DNA of 64,000 bases. It comes from Bacteriovorax sp. MedPE-SWde. Its GTDB lineage: Bacteria > Bdellovibrionota > Bacteriovoracia > Bacteriovoracales > Bacteriovoracaceae. This document shows, one piece after another, positions 1 through 6,528 of this stretch. The stretch covers positions 186,001-250,000 of the forward strand of contig MPCU01000004.1 in assembly GCA_001874305.1 (NCBI GenBank), read 5' to 3'. Under the pieces are notes generated by a model that saw only the letters and a list, made by a program, of their open reading frames with translations, did no database searches and had not been told where the DNA came from. Position 1 is the first letter of the stretch; every line of letters begins with the position of its first letter. Position numbers and translations under genes: made by a program.

Positions 1-1231
1 TCCAAATTGTCATATCTGGATCATGACTAACGGAGCTCTCACTATGTCCACAAATGATAATGTTATCGTGGTCATCTAGAATAACAGCGTTAGCAAAGTC
101 TTCTCCATTAGAGGTTCCACCTGCACTATGATGATGGATATATCCATCTTTTATATTATTTCCATCATGATCTTCGCCAAAAGTTGTATCGATATCTCCA
201 GAGGCTTTGTATTTCCACAAGGCCATATCATATCTAACAGATTGACTCTCAAGGATATGCCCCGCTGCCAAGATATCCCCTTCGCTATTCATTATGACAG
301 ATTTTATATCACCACTTTTAGAGGAAAAGGATTCAACTCCACCAAAGCTAAAGTTATTATCTAATGAACCAGTCGAGTTAAGTTTCCAAAGAGTCGGCTT
401 ACCATTTGCTATTCCACCAACAATGACATTTGAGCTTGCGTCTAAAGTTAGAGCATAGGCTTTCTCCGATTGAGCATTACTATCATAGAGAAAGTATCCA
501 ACTCCATTATAGCTTTGATCAATTCGCCCATCAGAAGTTAACTTCATTATCATCATGTCATCTGAGCCAGAAGAGTTTGAATGACCAGCAAGATAAATAC
601 TTCCTTCAGAGGAAACCTTTATCGCTGTAACATCTTCAGTTGAAGTTGATGAAAATGAATAAATAATAAATCCATCCTGCTTTCCATCTACAGGATACTT
701 ATCCTCTCCAAAACTTTGATCAAGTACTCCGTCTGTTGAGTACTTAACGACAATCAAATCGTAATTCAATCCATTATGTGCCTGACCAGTAACAAGAATT
801 CCACCATCGGATGCAAAAGCAAGTGCCCTACCAAAGTCGTGTTGGTTCCCATTGGCCTTTCCTGTTGGATCGTCTAATACGACGTAACCTTTACCTCCAG
901 CAAAACTAGTATCTAGTCCTCCATTTTTATCAAGCTTCCAAAGAACGATGTCATACTCAGGGTTTCGTGCATAGCCTGCAATATAAACTTCATCACTAGG
1001 GCCAACAAGAAGGCCTAATCCATCATCATGACTTCCGCTTATATCAAAAGCATTAAATCCTTTCTTCTCAGGACCAAATGTCTCATCAAGGGCCCCAAGA
1101 GCGAGATCTCTTTTAACCTTTCCAGAAATTGGATTCGCAGAAGAAGTGGTCGCACTCTCAGAAGCATTGTCAGAGTTACATGAGTAAAAAATTATTAGAG
1201 GTATAAAGAAGAAAGTTAGGATTTTTGTCAT
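1..1231 (-). CDS. Delta-60-repeat lipoprotein, 3' part cut by window edge
   Basis: A reading frame runs on the minus strand from an ATG at 1229-1231 to the window edge and is still open there. At least 410 codons are visible. The N-terminus is a lipoprotein signal ending in a lipobox-like FYSC followed by a Ser/Asn/Thr-rich linker. The rest is a series of roughly 50-60-residue units. Each has an LDxSFG-type turn (LDETFG, LDTSFA, LDQSFG, IDQSYN, IDTTFG) followed by a strand pattern like IYIAGYA or ILVTGQA. This is the delta-60 repeat (DUF5122) beta-propeller pattern of secreted and surface proteins. An AGAAG Shine-Dalgarno lies just upstream. It sits downstream of the giant repeat protein but behind a terminator, so it is probably a separate unit. 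Ligand or function is unknown. Confidence 0.8.
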   Translation of the reverse strand, partial: MTKILTFFFIPLIIFYSCNSDNASESATTSSANPISGKVKRDLALGALDETFGPEKKGFNAFDISGSHDDGLGLLVGPSDEVYIAGYARNPEYDIVLWKLDKNGGLDTSFAGGKGYVVLDDPTGKANGNQHDFGRALAFASDGGILVTGQAHNGLNYDLIVVKYSTDGVLDQSFGEDKYPVDGKQDGFIIYSFSSTSTEDVTAIKVSSEGSIYLAGHSNSSGSDDMMIMKLTSDGRIDQSYNGVGYFLYDSNAQSEKAYALTLDASSNVIVGGIANGKPTLWKLNSTGSLDNNFSFGGVESFSSKSGDIKSVIMNSEGDILAAGHILESQSVRYDMALWKYKASGDIDTTFGEDHDGNNIKDGYIHHHSAGGTSNGEDFANAVILDDHDNIIICGHSESSVSHDPDMTIW

Positions 1232-1264: not shown

Positions 1265-1290
1265 AAAAAAAAGGGAGCTAAAAGCTCCCC
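1265..1290 (-). terminator. Intrinsic terminator of the giant repeat gene
   Basis: On the minus strand a GGGAGC stem (1284-1289) pairs with GCTCCC (1273-1278) around a five-base loop. It is followed by eight U. It begins 6 bases after the stop codon of the upstream gene. Confidence 0.85.
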
Positions 1291-1295
1291 TTCAT

Positions 1296-4200
1296 TTATT
1301 TACCACAAGCTTGTGATTTTTCTGTTTTAACTTGTTTTTCAAGTCTCATGATCTTCTCTCCAGTAACTATGTAGTTTAGAGAAACACCACATTTTTTAGA
1401 CTCATCAAATACTCTCTTAAAGAGGTACTTATTCTTGTACGCATACTTTCCAAAATCAGCATATGCTTTAACAAATTCTTTATTATTTGTTCCATAATAC
1501 TTTTTCATTTTCTTAACTTGTTTAAAAACTTTCTTTAAGTTGTAAACAGCATCTTGTTTTTCTCTTTTAATACAGCTTGAGTTTTTCTTACAGTCGTATT
1601 TAATTTGAGCAACAAGGTCATTTCTAAAATCGATCTCTTTAACAGAACTCATTAAGTGTTCTGTATATGCCTTAGAAAAGTCTATCTTCATTTCAACTTT
1701 CGTATAGTTTAGCTTTCCAGATTTCTTAGGAACAACTGTAGAAAGTTCACTGAATAAGTATGTCTTATTCACAAGTCTTCTAACTGCTCTTTTTAGTTTT
1801 TTCGCAGTTCCATTATTCGTTTCATAGCTCCAAACAAAAGACCCTTTAGCATCAAAGTACTCTTTATCATCAAGCTTCGTCTCTGTTACACCAGCATAGA
1901 ATGCCTTTACAGCATTTCTTTCTTTAGTTCCTAAGTTAGAGCTTGTTCCACTTGAATATATACCGTACTGGCTCTTAACCTTTGCACCTGTTTCATGAAC
2001 TGTCATATTTGATAATTCAAAAAACTTTCCTGCACTATATGTCCAAGAAGCTAGTTGGATAAAAGGAGTTGATGTACCTAAGTTAAAAGTACTTCCAGTA
2101 AATGTTGAACTAGATGAAACAACTTTTTCAACTCTTGGGTCTGCGTAATGATCCATATCTTGAACAGAAGCAATATTACCCTTTAACATATCTTCGTAAA
2201 CAGCTTTAATTTCATCATCAGCTAAGTCGAGAACAAATGAGAATGCCGCACCTTCTTTATTTATCTTAGAAACACTTGCTCCAACGAATAGTGCTCCAGT
2301 TGATAAAGACATTGATTTAAGCTTATTTCTTGTAACTTCGATATATACTCTAGACTCATCAAGCTTTTGAACAAAAGTTGTATAAGAACCTTGAGCAACT
2401 GCCGCAGTACTTAGAGGAATCAGGTCATACATTCCTCCAAGAGTGAACATTACACCACCGTTAGATTCATAAGTTACGCTATCACCAGCTCTCCAAGACT
2501 TAAGGTCTTCCGCTTTATATGGAACCTTCATTGTCTTCTCTACAGATGCTATTTCATTTTTCCCAAAAGCTAGCTTCTTAAATAGAACATTTGATCCTTT
2601 AATTGGAGCAATACCAATTCCGTACATAGTTCCAGCAAGTTCAGGATACTTATCTCCAGCATTAGGATAGTTCCAGCTTCCAGAAACACCAAGACCTAGA
2701 GTGTAGTTCTTTTTCTTTGTAACAATATATGCCGAAGCATTATTGATATAAGAAAGGTTCTTAGAAGGATATTGTTCAGACTCTACAACTTCAACAGACT
2801 GAGAAGCAAAGAGGTTCGTAAAGAGTAATGGCTTAACACTAAAAGCAGTGATTAGCTCATCTTCATTATTATTACCGATATGGTTATTCCCAATATTGTT
2901 ATTACCACGGTTATTATTACCGTTGTTCTCATCTCCAATATTGTCATTACCTTGGTTTCTATCACCAGTATTTCTATCACCGATGTTGTCGCTACCTAGG
3001 TTTGCGCTACCATTGTTTCTATCTCCAACATTGTAGTCACCATTATTGTCACTACCTGAGTTGAATTCACCATTGTTTCTATAACCATAGTTATAACTAC
3101 CGTTATTAAAGTCACCAGTATTGAAATCTCCAGTATTTTGCTGACCAAAGTTTCCATTACCAGTATTTAAACTTCCTTGGTTTCCTGATCCATTATTATC
3201 AAAACCAACATTATAACTTCCATTGTTTCTGTCACCAAAGTTAGAGTCACCAGTATTAGAGCTACCTACGTTAGAGCTACCAATATTATCATTCCCTAGG
3301 TTATGATCTCCAGTATTTCTATTACCGAGGTTCATATCACCCTGGTTTCTATTCCCTAAGTTATTATCACCAGTATTTCTATGTCCAATATTTCCAGAAC
3401 CAGTATTTCTGTTTCCTAAGTTATGGTTACCCTCATTTCTGTTACCAATATTTAGGTCTCCAGTATTGTTACTACCAACATTGAAGTCACCTGTATTAGC
3501 GTTACCGCTGTTGTGATCACCTGTGTTTCTGTTTCCAAAGTTGTTATCACCAGTATTTCTGTTACCAACGTTACTAGTACCTGTATTTCTATGCCCTAGG
3601 TTATTATCACCTGTATTTCTATTACCAACATTTCCATCACCAGTGTTTCCACTACCTGCATTGTAGAAACCTGTGTTGTTATTACCAACATTTGATTCCC
3701 CAGTATTTCCGTTACCAACGTTTGCCTCTCCGTTGTTACCGTTACCTGCGTTGTCATAACCTACGTTATTATTTCCGCTATTATAAGCACCGTCATTTCC
3801 ATTACCCATATTTGAGTAACCAGTATTGTTATTACCAGCGTTTCTATCTCCAACATTACCGTTACCAATGTTTCGACTTCCTACGTTTCCGTTTCCTGAG
3901 TTATAAGAACCGTCGTTATTACTACCAGAGTTATAATTACCTTCATTACGGTTACCAGTATTATAACTTCCTTCGTTTCCATTTCCTGAGTTGTAATCGC
4001 CTACGTTGTTATTACCAGCGTTATACTCACCAGTATTTCCGTTTCCAGTATTTCTATCACCTTCGTTTCTGTTTCCAGTGTTGTATTCACCTACATTGTT
4101 ATTTCCTGTATTATTTCTACCTTCATTTCCATGACCAGCATTACCACGCCCCTCATTTCCAGTACCAGCATTGTAGTCCCCTTCGTTACCGTTACCAGCA

Positions 4201-6428
4201 TTGAAGCGTCCGTCATTTCCAGCACCAGAGTTGTAGTCACCTAGGTTATTATTTCCAGAGTTTCTTCTACCTTCATTTCCATTACCGGCGTTATACTCAC
4301 CAGTATTTCCATTCCCAGAGTTTAGATCCCCAGTGTTTCCATTTCCAGAGTTGTGCTCACCTGAGTTTCTATTTCCAGCATTGAAGTCACCAGTGTTTGC
4401 GTTACCCGCATTGAAAGCGCCATCATTTCCGTTACCAGAGTTGAAGTTACCATCATTATTATTTCCAGAATTAAAGTCACCTGTATTTGAATGTCCTGAA
4501 TTGAAATTGCCTGTATTGCTGCTACCAGTATTAAAACCTCCAGTATTCCCATTTCCAGTATTGTAATTACCTTCATTATTATTTCCGGCATTAAACACAC
4601 CTGTGTTTCCATTCCCCTGGTTATAATCACCTTCGTTACGGTTACCACTATTGTAGTTTCCTTCGTTAGAGTTACCAGAGTTTAAGAATCCATCATTACC
4701 ATTACCAGAATTACTGTAATCAGAGTTTCTATTTCCCGAGTTCGAAAAACTTGTATTCCTGTTTCCTGAATTTACCTCACCAGTGTTACCACGACCTGTA
4801 TTTTGATTAGAATCTGCACCAACAAGAGAGCCTGATTGATTATCACCACGGTTAGCATGACCTGAGTTGTTACTTCCTCTATTGTACGTTCCCGAATTAT
4901 CATCACCCGCATTATAACTTCCGGAGTTTCGATCTCCATTATTCACGACACCAGTGTTACCATTTCCGTTATTGATGCTACCTGTATTACCATTCCCGTT
5001 ATTTACAACACCTGAGTTTCTGTCACCGTTATTTAAAGTACCAGTATTTCTATTGCCTCTGTTATAATCACCTTCATTCACATTCCCTGTGTTATTGGCA
5101 CCTACATTCATATTTCCTGTATTCTGATGTCCACTATTCCTACTACCACTATTCTGCATTCCAGTGTTTCTATTTCCGTTATTTTGAATACCAGTATTAG
5201 CATTACCGTTATTCTGAATACCTGTGTTTCTGTCACCATTATTTTGAACACCAGTGTTAGCATTTCCTCTATTTTCAACACCTGTATTTCTATTACCTGT
5301 GTTGCTTACGCCAGAGTTATTACTTCCTCTGTTTGTATCTCCAGTATTTGAATTACCACGGTTAGAAGAGCCATCATTTCGACTCCCTCTATTATAAGAG
5401 CCGTCGTTGTTATTTCCTCTGTTGTAAGAGCCGTCGTTATTATTTCCGTTATTATATGAGCCAGTATTTCCATTTCCAGAATTATAGCTAGCATCATTTC
5501 TATTACCATTGTTATAGCTACCATCATTTCTGTTACCAGTATTATAGTGCCCATCATTCTGGTTACCAGTATTGTAACGTCCAGTGTTTCTATCACCTGT
5601 ATTATTACTATTTACGTTTGCATTCCCTGTGTTGTGATCCGCAGAGTTTCTGTTTCCAGTATTAAAGTCAGCGCTATTTCTATTACCAGTGTTATAGTCA
5701 CCAGTATTTGCATTACCTCTGTTGTAATCTCCAGAGTTAGCATTACCTCTGTTACGATCTCCAGTATTTGCATTACCCGCGTTATAGTCACCAGAGTTTC
5801 TATTTCCTAGGTTTCTAGTCCCTTCATTTGCGTTACCGTTATTTAGGTCACCATTATTTCTGTTTCCAACATTGTTGTTCCCAGTATTTCGGTTACCATT
5901 ATTTAAGATACCATCGTTACCATTTCCATTATTAAGAGATCCATCATTACCGTTACCATTATTTAATCGCCCAGTATTTCTGTTACCGTTATTTAATGTA
6001 CCGTCATTATTATTCCCTAAGTTGGAATGACCAGAGTTCCCTGAACCAAGGTTCATGTCTCCATCTACACGATCATTAAAATTAGCGTTACTAGCATTGC
6101 TCGCTCCAACATTAATATTTGAAGATTGCCCATTAGTATTTAAAGTCGCTGCATCGTATGAGCTTCTTGAGTTTGAATTACCCGTTGCTGATGTATTTCC
6201 AGACGCAGTATTTGAGCCATGATTTGGCCCTAAGTCAGTTCCTAGAATCATGCTATTTAAAAGCATATTATTTGCATTCGTACTCGTATAATTTAGAGAT
6301 ACACAATTTCCCTGAGTGGAAATGAATCCTGTTGCAGGATCTATAGTTCTCTTACAAGGAATATTTTCTATTGTTGCCCATGTAGGAATGGCAAGCACAG
6401 CAATAACTGCAATTTTGATTTTTTGCAT
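1296..6428 (-). CDS. Giant exported Asn/Gly pentapeptide-repeat (NxGxx) protein
   Basis: 1,710 residues. A signal peptide (about 1-18, ending PTWA) is followed by a short Asn/Ser-rich lead (19-125). Residues 126-1188 are about 212 tandem NxGxx pentapeptides, mostly alternating as a decapeptide N-x-G-N-x-N-x-G-x-x. The fifth position is often R, G, N or A and the tenth often Y, F, L or H. This resembles the Pentapeptide_2 family known from mycobacterial PPE-MPTR proteins, and differs from the A(D/N)Lxx pentapeptides of MfpA/Qnr. Residues 1189-1710 form a separate, non-repetitive, Lys-rich domain with several cysteines near the end, which I do not recognise. The start is supported by GGAGA seven bases before the ATG. 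Export and a long rod or beta-helix shape are inference. Surface adhesion, prey contact or a protective layer are all possible; nothing in the sequence decides between them. Confidence 0.85.
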   Translation of the reverse strand: MQKIKIAVIAVLAIPTWATIENIPCKRTIDPATGFISTQGNCVSLNYTSTNANNMLLNSMILGTDLGPNHGSNTASGNTSATGNSNSRSSYDAATLNTNGQSSNINVGASNASNANFNDRVDGDMNLGSGNSGHSNLGNNNDGTLNNGNRNTGRLNNGNGNDGSLNNGNGNDGILNNGNRNTGNNNVGNRNNGDLNNGNANEGTRNLGNRNSGDYNAGNANTGDRNRGNANSGDYNRGNANTGDYNTGNRNSADFNTGNRNSADHNTGNANVNSNNTGDRNTGRYNTGNQNDGHYNTGNRNDGSYNNGNRNDASYNSGNGNTGSYNNGNNNDGSYNRGNNNDGSYNRGSRNDGSSNRGNSNTGDTNRGSNNSGVSNTGNRNTGVENRGNANTGVQNNGDRNTGIQNNGNANTGIQNNGNRNTGMQNSGSRNSGHQNTGNMNVGANNTGNVNEGDYNRGNRNTGTLNNGDRNSGVVNNGNGNTGSINNGNGNTGVVNNGDRNSGSYNAGDDNSGTYNRGSNNSGHANRGDNQSGSLVGADSNQNTGRGNTGEVNSGNRNTSFSNSGNRNSDYSNSGNGNDGFLNSGNSNEGNYNSGNRNEGDYNQGNGNTGVFNAGNNNEGNYNTGNGNTGGFNTGSSNTGNFNSGHSNTGDFNSGNNNDGNFNSGNGNDGAFNAGNANTGDFNAGNRNSGEHNSGNGNTGDLNSGNGNTGEYNAGNGNEGRRNSGNNNLGDYNSGAGNDGRFNAGNGNEGDYNAGTGNEGRGNAGHGNEGRNNTGNNNVGEYNTGNRNEGDRNTGNGNTGEYNAGNNNVGDYNSGNGNEGSYNTGNRNEGNYNSGSNNDGSYNSGNGNVGSRNIGNGNVGDRNAGNNNTGYSNMGNGNDGAYNSGNNNVGYDNAGNGNNGEANVGNGNTGESNVGNNNTGFYNAGSGNTGDGNVGNRNTGDNNLGHRNTGTSNVGNRNTGDNNFGNRNTGDHNSGNANTGDFNVGSNNTGDLNIGNRNEGNHNLGNRNTGSGNIGHRNTGDNNLGNRNQGDMNLGNRNTGDHNLGNDNIGSSNVGSSNTGDSNFGDRNNGSYNVGFDNNGSGNQGSLNTGNGNFGQQNTGDFNTGDFNNGSYNYGYRNNGEFNSGSDNNGDYNVGDRNNGSANLGSDNIGDRNTGDRNQGNDNIGDENNGNNNRGNNNIGNNHIGNNNEDELITAFSVKPLLFTNLFASQSVEVVESEQYPSKNLSYINNASAYIVTKKKNYTLGLGVSGSWNYPNAGDKYPELAGTMYGIGIAPIKGSNVLFKKLAFGKNEIASVEKTMKVPYKAEDLKSWRAGDSVTYESNGGVMFTLGGMYDLIPLSTAAVAQGSYTTFVQKLDESRVYIEVTRNKLKSMSLSTGALFVGASVSKINKEGAAFSFVLDLADDEIKAVYEDMLKGNIASVQDMDHYADPRVEKVVSSSSTFTGSTFNLGTSTPFIQLASWTYSAGKFFELSNMTVHETGAKVKSQYGIYSSGTSSNLGTKERNAVKAFYAGVTETKLDDKEYFDAKGSFVWSYETNNGTAKKLKRAVRRLVNKTYLFSELSTVVPKKSGKLNYTKVEMKIDFSKAYTEHLMSSVKEIDFRNDLVAQIKYDCKKNSSCIKREKQDAVYNLKKVFKQVKKMKKYYGTNNKEFVKAYADFGKYAYKNKYLFKRVFDESKKCGVSLNYIVTGEKIMRLEKQVKTEKSQACGK
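2865..6053 (-). repeat. Coding tandem array, 15/30-nt period
   Basis: About 3.2 kb of DNA keeps a strict 15-nt (pentapeptide) period with a 30-nt super-period. The Gly-codon columns stay in phase from 6053 down to about 4850 and from about 4800 down to 2865. The two blocks are offset by a single 6-nt gain at about 4800-4845, where the peptide reads GSLVGADSNQ instead of regular units. Synonymous positions vary freely (Asn AAT/AAC, Gly GGT/GGA/GGG/GGC) while the NxG frame is kept. That suggests an old array held by protein-level selection. Open frames on other strands and phases here are by-products of the repeat. Confidence 0.9.
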
Positions 6429-6528
6429 TATGGTTTCTCCAATTTAATTAATTTGTTTGAGCTTATTTAATAGAAATTTCAAAGATTTACAACGGATTGA
6501 TTCAAATATGTTATTTTATTCATAGGGT

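Follow-up and report, generated by a model that had tools for sequence, protein, structure and literature searches.

We find that a 1,710-residue protein encoded in a 64,000-nucleotide stretch of the Bacteriovorax sp. MedPE-SWde genome (hereafter the window) belongs to a family of proteins that share a conserved C-terminal domain and differ in the repeat array in front of it. We put at about even odds (a probability near 0.5) the reading that it is an exported surface fibre, in which an exchangeable array stalk is carried on a conserved C-terminal module, probably for cell contact. In this reading three parts follow one another: the signal peptide together with a short segment after it, then a long roll of NxGxx pentapeptides, and finally a conserved domain of ~510 residues. 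The gene is read 6428..1296 on the minus strand, and its features are collected in Table 1.

Table 1. Features of the NxGxx-array gene and its product, in window positions.
Feature	Residues	Position	Strand	Basis
Whole gene, 1,710 codons + stop	1-1710	1296..6428	(-)	Open frame exactly spans these positions, ATG start
Ribosome-binding site GGAGA, a few bases 5' of ATG, at good distance		6436..6440	(-)	Sequence
Putative signal peptide, MQKIKIAVIAVLAIPTWA	~1-18	6375..6428	(-)	Read by eye from sequence
Short N-terminal segment	19-125	6054..6374	(-)	Sequence, homologues
NxGxx array block 1, 81 pentapeptides (77 strict)	126-530	4839..6053	(-)	Pfam match and unit tabulation
Interruption and register shift	531-542	4803..4838	(-)	Unit tabulation
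NxGxx array block 2, 129 pentapeptides (126 strict)	543-1187	2868..4802	(-)	Pfam match, unit tabulation; AlphaFold2 model covers residues 793-912
Shared array end (...NNNRGNNNIGNNHIGNNNEDEL)	1168-1192	2853..2927	(-)	Comparison of five NxGxx arrays
Conserved C-terminal domain (522 residues)	1189-1710	1299..2864	(-)	Family member without any described model
Symmetrical stem-loop just 3' of stop codon, possible terminator		1273..1289	(.)	Consensus match only; equal number expected by chance

The initial annotation described an exported protein with a signal peptide in front, and the sequence bears this out: the window protein is probably exported via this peptide. The same layout is found at the N-termini of two close homologues, L108 and L037, with two Cys residues (CKRTIDPATGFISTQGNC) within residues 19-125 kept in both. 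A crude signal-peptide score based on a simple hydrophobicity rule is positive for 59 of 71 family members vs. 213 of 398 neighbouring control frames, a weak separation. We find no operon partner for the window gene, whose neighbours encode a dehydrogenase resembling NDH-2 and a propeller protein of the DUF5122 type, nor any neighbour gene common to the NxGxx members, as the surroundings of L108, L037, L118 and L112 all differ. The DUF5122 beta-propeller gene is partial (window positions 2-1231, same strand), and its N-terminus resembles a lipoprotein signal.

The array spans residues 126-1187 and comprises 210 pentapeptides (81 + 129), 203 of which are strict NxGxx units, with the first Asn of the unit kept in 209 of the 210. 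An array of this kind is far beyond chance. The Pentapeptide_2 profile (PF01469), named in the initial annotation as the one to search with, recognises the window protein with an E-value of 1.2e-140 and 457.6 bits, well above the Pfam gathering cut-off of 26.4, in 45 passing stretches. The estimate of about 212 units is thus nearly exact, but the array is not unbroken as had been proposed, since the 12 residues 531-542 interrupt it and move the register by two residues. The alternation noted earlier is confirmed by the array's self-match, which reaches 0.55 at lag 10 against 0.41 at lag 5; the period is 10 rather than 5, and this period fits the two faces per coil that had been suggested. Every tabulated copy of the decapeptide N-x-G-N-x-N-x-G-x-x has Asn at positions 1 and 6, and Gly fills positions 3 and 8 with hardly an exception, while Arg or Gly is frequent at position 5, Thr, Asp or Glu at position 7, Asp, Ser or Asn at position 9, and Tyr or Phe at position 10. 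Charged residues are confined to the variable positions 2, 4, 5, 7, 9 and 10, and Lys, Cys, Pro and Trp do not occur in the array at all.

The array is not a simple product of DNA slippage, a candidate that we reject on three counts: block 2 contains no pair of identical 30-base units, AAT and AAC are used about equally for the invariant Asn, and dN/dS in the array of a paralogue is 0.09. At the protein level, units share 52% identity on average. The dN/dS value comes from the array of the paralogue, not from the window gene's own copy, and was obtained by comparing the paralogue locus (L108) of the same genome with a contig of genome G124 (L106:1-6045, G124:C107) that is 97.4% identical to it over 6 kb. 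Across 542 shared codons there are no internal indels, and dN/dS is 0.10 overall and 0.09 in the array; selection acting on the protein thus maintains the paralogue's array, and such NxGxx arrays are under selection, as measured on the paralogue copy. G124 is the genome of another genus, and its contig is either misbinned or the result of recent transfer.

AlphaFold2 was used to probe the fold of 120 array residues (793-912), in an alignment with six further segments of that array. The best model is a regular two-strand roll with a pLDDT of 94.8 and a three-residue strand in almost every pentapeptide, a regular solenoid prediction of the kind that the initial annotation had named as support; the five models range from 94.8 down to 69.7. 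A structural aligner groups this model with adhesin heads and curli, matching it to CbpF (Z 11.6), to UspA1 over all 120 residues (Z 10.6, 1.7 Å), to a CsgA (Z 10.4) and to YadA (Z 9.8). Foldseek ranks GlmU hexapeptide solenoids and an ice-binding protein on top, at low TM-scores. No classical pentapeptide (Rfr) fold stands among the listed matches, an absence that rules nothing out.

AlphaFold2 gives beta-solenoids high confidence even for random perfect repeats (PMC11795689), and the predicted roll, being of the kind that it over-predicts, is support and not proof. This caution is a serious one, softened by the repeats being imperfect and selected, and by charges sitting only where they could face outward, though neither replaces experiment. 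On the model, the array is most likely a thin two-sided beta-roll with ten residues per coil, a geometry that would explain the decapeptide code. Because charges occupy only the variable positions, a roll with Asn and Gly inside would bury none. At ~4.8 Å per coil, ~105 coils would make a flat rod of ~50 nm; the long rigid fibre or coat proposed earlier remains an inference. That the flat, repetitive face of the array binds ice, mineral or sugar surfaces, as in ice-binding solenoids, we consider highly improbable: the structures matched do include an ice-binding protein of ryegrass, but the array has no regular TxT-type ladder, its outward positions vary freely, and fold similarity does not show function.

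The C-terminal domain (residues 1189-1710) matches no Pfam, NCBIfam or PDB entry; it is the 520-residue unknown domain of the initial annotation. Searching Pfam and NCBIfam with 45 members and PDB with a profile returns only scattered, chance-type matches of single members, and the literature searched contains no paper describing this family. AlphaFold2, given the domains of the window protein and L037 (two sequences), reaches a mean pLDDT of 30. Gly and Pro make up most of the best-conserved columns, joined by one Lys and two Cys, and no catalytic pattern is apparent; this favours a module for structure or binding over an enzyme.

The window protein had been seen as a stand-alone array; instead, its array is one of several variants found in front of a conserved C-terminal domain that is widespread. 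The same genome encodes a second NxGxx protein (L108, a 1,461-residue frame) with a domain 70% identical to that of the window protein, and a third member (L109, a 574-residue frame) in which Met/Asp/His-rich repeats replace NxGxx. Of the order's 129 genomes, 54 contain the domain by a single-sequence search and 74 by a profile built from 45 members; across the phylum, 102 of the 369 genomes searched carry it. The window protein, itself included in the profile, matches positions 2-530 of 531 with an E-value below 1e-150. The hits extend to most members of genus g52, which we take to be Bdellovibrio, the name resting on genome G132, presumably B. bacteriovorus HD100, which carries two copies (L142:4302-7490 and L143:3961-6843). 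A close search of genome contigs, reaching beyond the phylum, returns a single match, to a Halobacteriovorax marinus isolate; this is the nearest named record and, with the lineage, fits the earlier suggestion of a possibly predatory bacterium. A close search of viral contigs and plasmids finds no relative of the domain.

Signal-like starts are visible in most domain members, and the order of signal peptide, repeats and conserved C-terminal domain matches that of autotransporters. The domain could accordingly be read as a translocator or outer-membrane anchor and the array as its exported passenger, and the domain does have Gly-rich, strand-like stretches. We nevertheless find this improbable. 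No autotransporter or YadA-anchor model matches, and the members end in a helical-looking stretch and a conserved Cys rather than in an aromatic beta-signal, an observation that rests on a poor model. Members without any passenger also occur: L119, L120 and L124 consist of a signal peptide and the domain alone, so that the domain must work on its own, which weighs against a pure translocator.

The alternative that we prefer, a constant module with an exchangeable stalk, draws on the diversity of the arrays, which lie between the signal peptide and the domain. In the 71-member tree set, 5 arrays are NxGxx, 14 are Gly-x-x triplets (NGDNGS, GNNGNN), 14 Gly-rich or Ser/Gly, 5 Pro-rich, 3 Asp/His and 3 Met/Asp, and 27 members have no array; classes were set by simple rules with three manual corrections, which apply equally to the AU test and the HTTM counts below. 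Array type has switched many times over the domain tree: the seven classes require at least 17 changes, against a minimum of 6. A single clade of the triplet class is rejected (p-AU 1.4e-5). A single origin of the NxGxx class is possible: its five members are separated from the rest by a poorly supported branch (support 17), and the motif GNxHxGxxNEDEL closes all five arrays compared, even where identity between the domains that follow falls to 28-31%, which favours one origin. Pentapeptide_2 arrays occur in 6 of the 369 genomes of the phylum; related arrays thus exist in other genomes, but the NxGxx version is absent from sister genomes of the same genus, whereas the initial annotation had named related arrays in sister species as support. 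The Met/Asp/His repeats (GDMHDM, MDHDMSG) in L109:7519-9240, L091:6172-8100, L080:6130-8052 and L085:6370-8298 look metal-binding.

This same diversity can be turned to another account, in which the array is disordered or gel-like and forms a hydrated, Asn/Gly-rich brush round the cell, as the family's other low-complexity arrays might. The relatives' Pro-rich, Gly/Ser and Asp/His arrays cannot all share one fold, length and hydration might suffice for function, and the bias of AlphaFold2 towards solenoids (PMC11795689) weakens the case for a roll. We judge a brush unlikely, if less so than a translocator, as the strictly conserved Asn and Gly at fixed spacing, the period of 10 and the common array-end motif exceed what a brush would need, and dN/dS in the paralogue's array is 0.09.

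The triplet members have a neighbourhood of their own. Of the 14 triplet-array genes, 13 (L113, L114, L115, L117, L121, L122, L137, L138, L139, L142, L144, L148 and L154) have an HTTM (PF05090) gene within 4 kb, vs. 2 of the 57 other members, a link that is strong in count and comes from few independent clades, with three independent pairs for which a sign test cannot reach significance. The PF05090 match itself was tested on two of these membrane-protein genes, and the rest were joined to them by blastp clustering. On the Bacteriovorax side, the HTTM gene follows on the same strand at a distance of 8-75 bases, and L069, a truncated member outside the tree set, also has an HTTM neighbour. HTTM proteins are possibly an unrecognised partner or modifying system for triplet members. 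In Bdellovibrio, a second small membrane-protein gene often accompanies the HTTM gene beside a triplet-array member. In several species of that genus (L142:204-4087), the triplet-array gene is followed on the same strand by undescribed genes of 914 and 205 residues and a small one of 176 residues, none with a Pfam match.

Taken together, a constant exported domain joined to interchangeable, length-variable, hydrophilic arrays fits a surface stalk or spacer. In the reading that we favour, the domain would be the constant part and the region between it and the signal peptide an exchangeable stalk, made of NxGxx in the window protein, of Gly-x-x, Gly/Ser, Pro, Asp/His or Met/Asp repeats in other members, or of nothing at all. 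The stalk of the window protein would be a stiff rod of ~105 coils, with Asn and Gly inward and variable residues outside, and an extended surface fibre or coat, anchored at one end, would keep either the domain or the rod's distal end at a distance from the cell as it meets prey or surfaces. A prey-contact role is suggested by analogy, because other exchangeable fibres of the phylum, the MAT proteins, act in this way. More tentatively, these proteins may form a Bdellovibrionota-wide surface-protein family built on an undescribed ~510-residue domain, whose stalk (an NxGxx roll, a Gly-x-x helix, a Pro or Gly/Ser brush, or metal-binding-like Met/His/Asp repeats) has been repeatedly swapped in the service of prey contact.

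These findings turn an isolated oddity into a family open to testing, with the domain in most Bdellovibrio genomes searched, one of them presumably that of the genetically tractable strain HD100. The family is a natural experiment on stalk function, with at least five chemically distinct repeat arrays attached to a single domain, and its NxGxx members provide a mycobacteria-free subject for the structure of MPTR-type repeats. The link between triplet arrays and HTTM genes suggests an unrecognised partner or modification.

Among known systems, the mycobacterial PPE-MPTR proteins share the NxGxx repeat, the same Pfam model (PF01469) and very large size, up to 3,716 residues (PMC7028111), in exported proteins. 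The initial annotation's comparison holds for the repeat type but not beyond it, as the PPE domain is absent and the model also matches a Methanosarcina genome and Rheinheimera phages. The window protein contains no PPE or PE domain, no other Pfam family at E-values up to 1 and no NCBIfam match, and we reject its assignment as a PPE-MPTR protein; it has an ordinary signal peptide and its own C-terminal domain and comes from an unrelated organism. Sec export is more likely than ESX-5 type VII secretion, because a signal peptide can be read from the sequence. Classical A(D/N)Lxx pentapeptide repeats (PF00805, Rfr fold) give no match at E-values up to 1. The Barba pentapeptide proteins of Rheinheimera phages and PHROG 14105 also carry NxGxx arrays, ~50% identical over 129 residues, but these proteins are small (~325 residues), too short for the C-terminal domain; the Barba protein at L157:5647-6624 is annotated as pentapeptide, and PHROG 14105 (function unknown) matches the window array. 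The left-handed beta-roll heads of the YadA, UspA1 and CbpF adhesins resemble the predicted array fold (Z 9.8-11.6), in a model of the kind over-predicted by AlphaFold2, although the window array would have ten residues per coil and the protein has no YadA anchor by Pfam. The MAT fibres of Bdellovibrio bacteriovorus are likewise exported modular proteins with exchangeable parts from the same predatory phylum, with a constant beta-rich domain of ~130 residues after the signal peptide and an S74 peptidase domain in 13 of 21 MATs (PMC10769870), for which the window protein has no Pfam match. MAT fibres vary at the C-terminal tip behind a fixed N-terminal domain; the window family has the opposite plan, a fixed C-terminal domain behind a variable N-terminal array. 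The repeat type and the general idea of repeat-stalk surface proteins are thus known, and the domain and its combination with the arrays are new.
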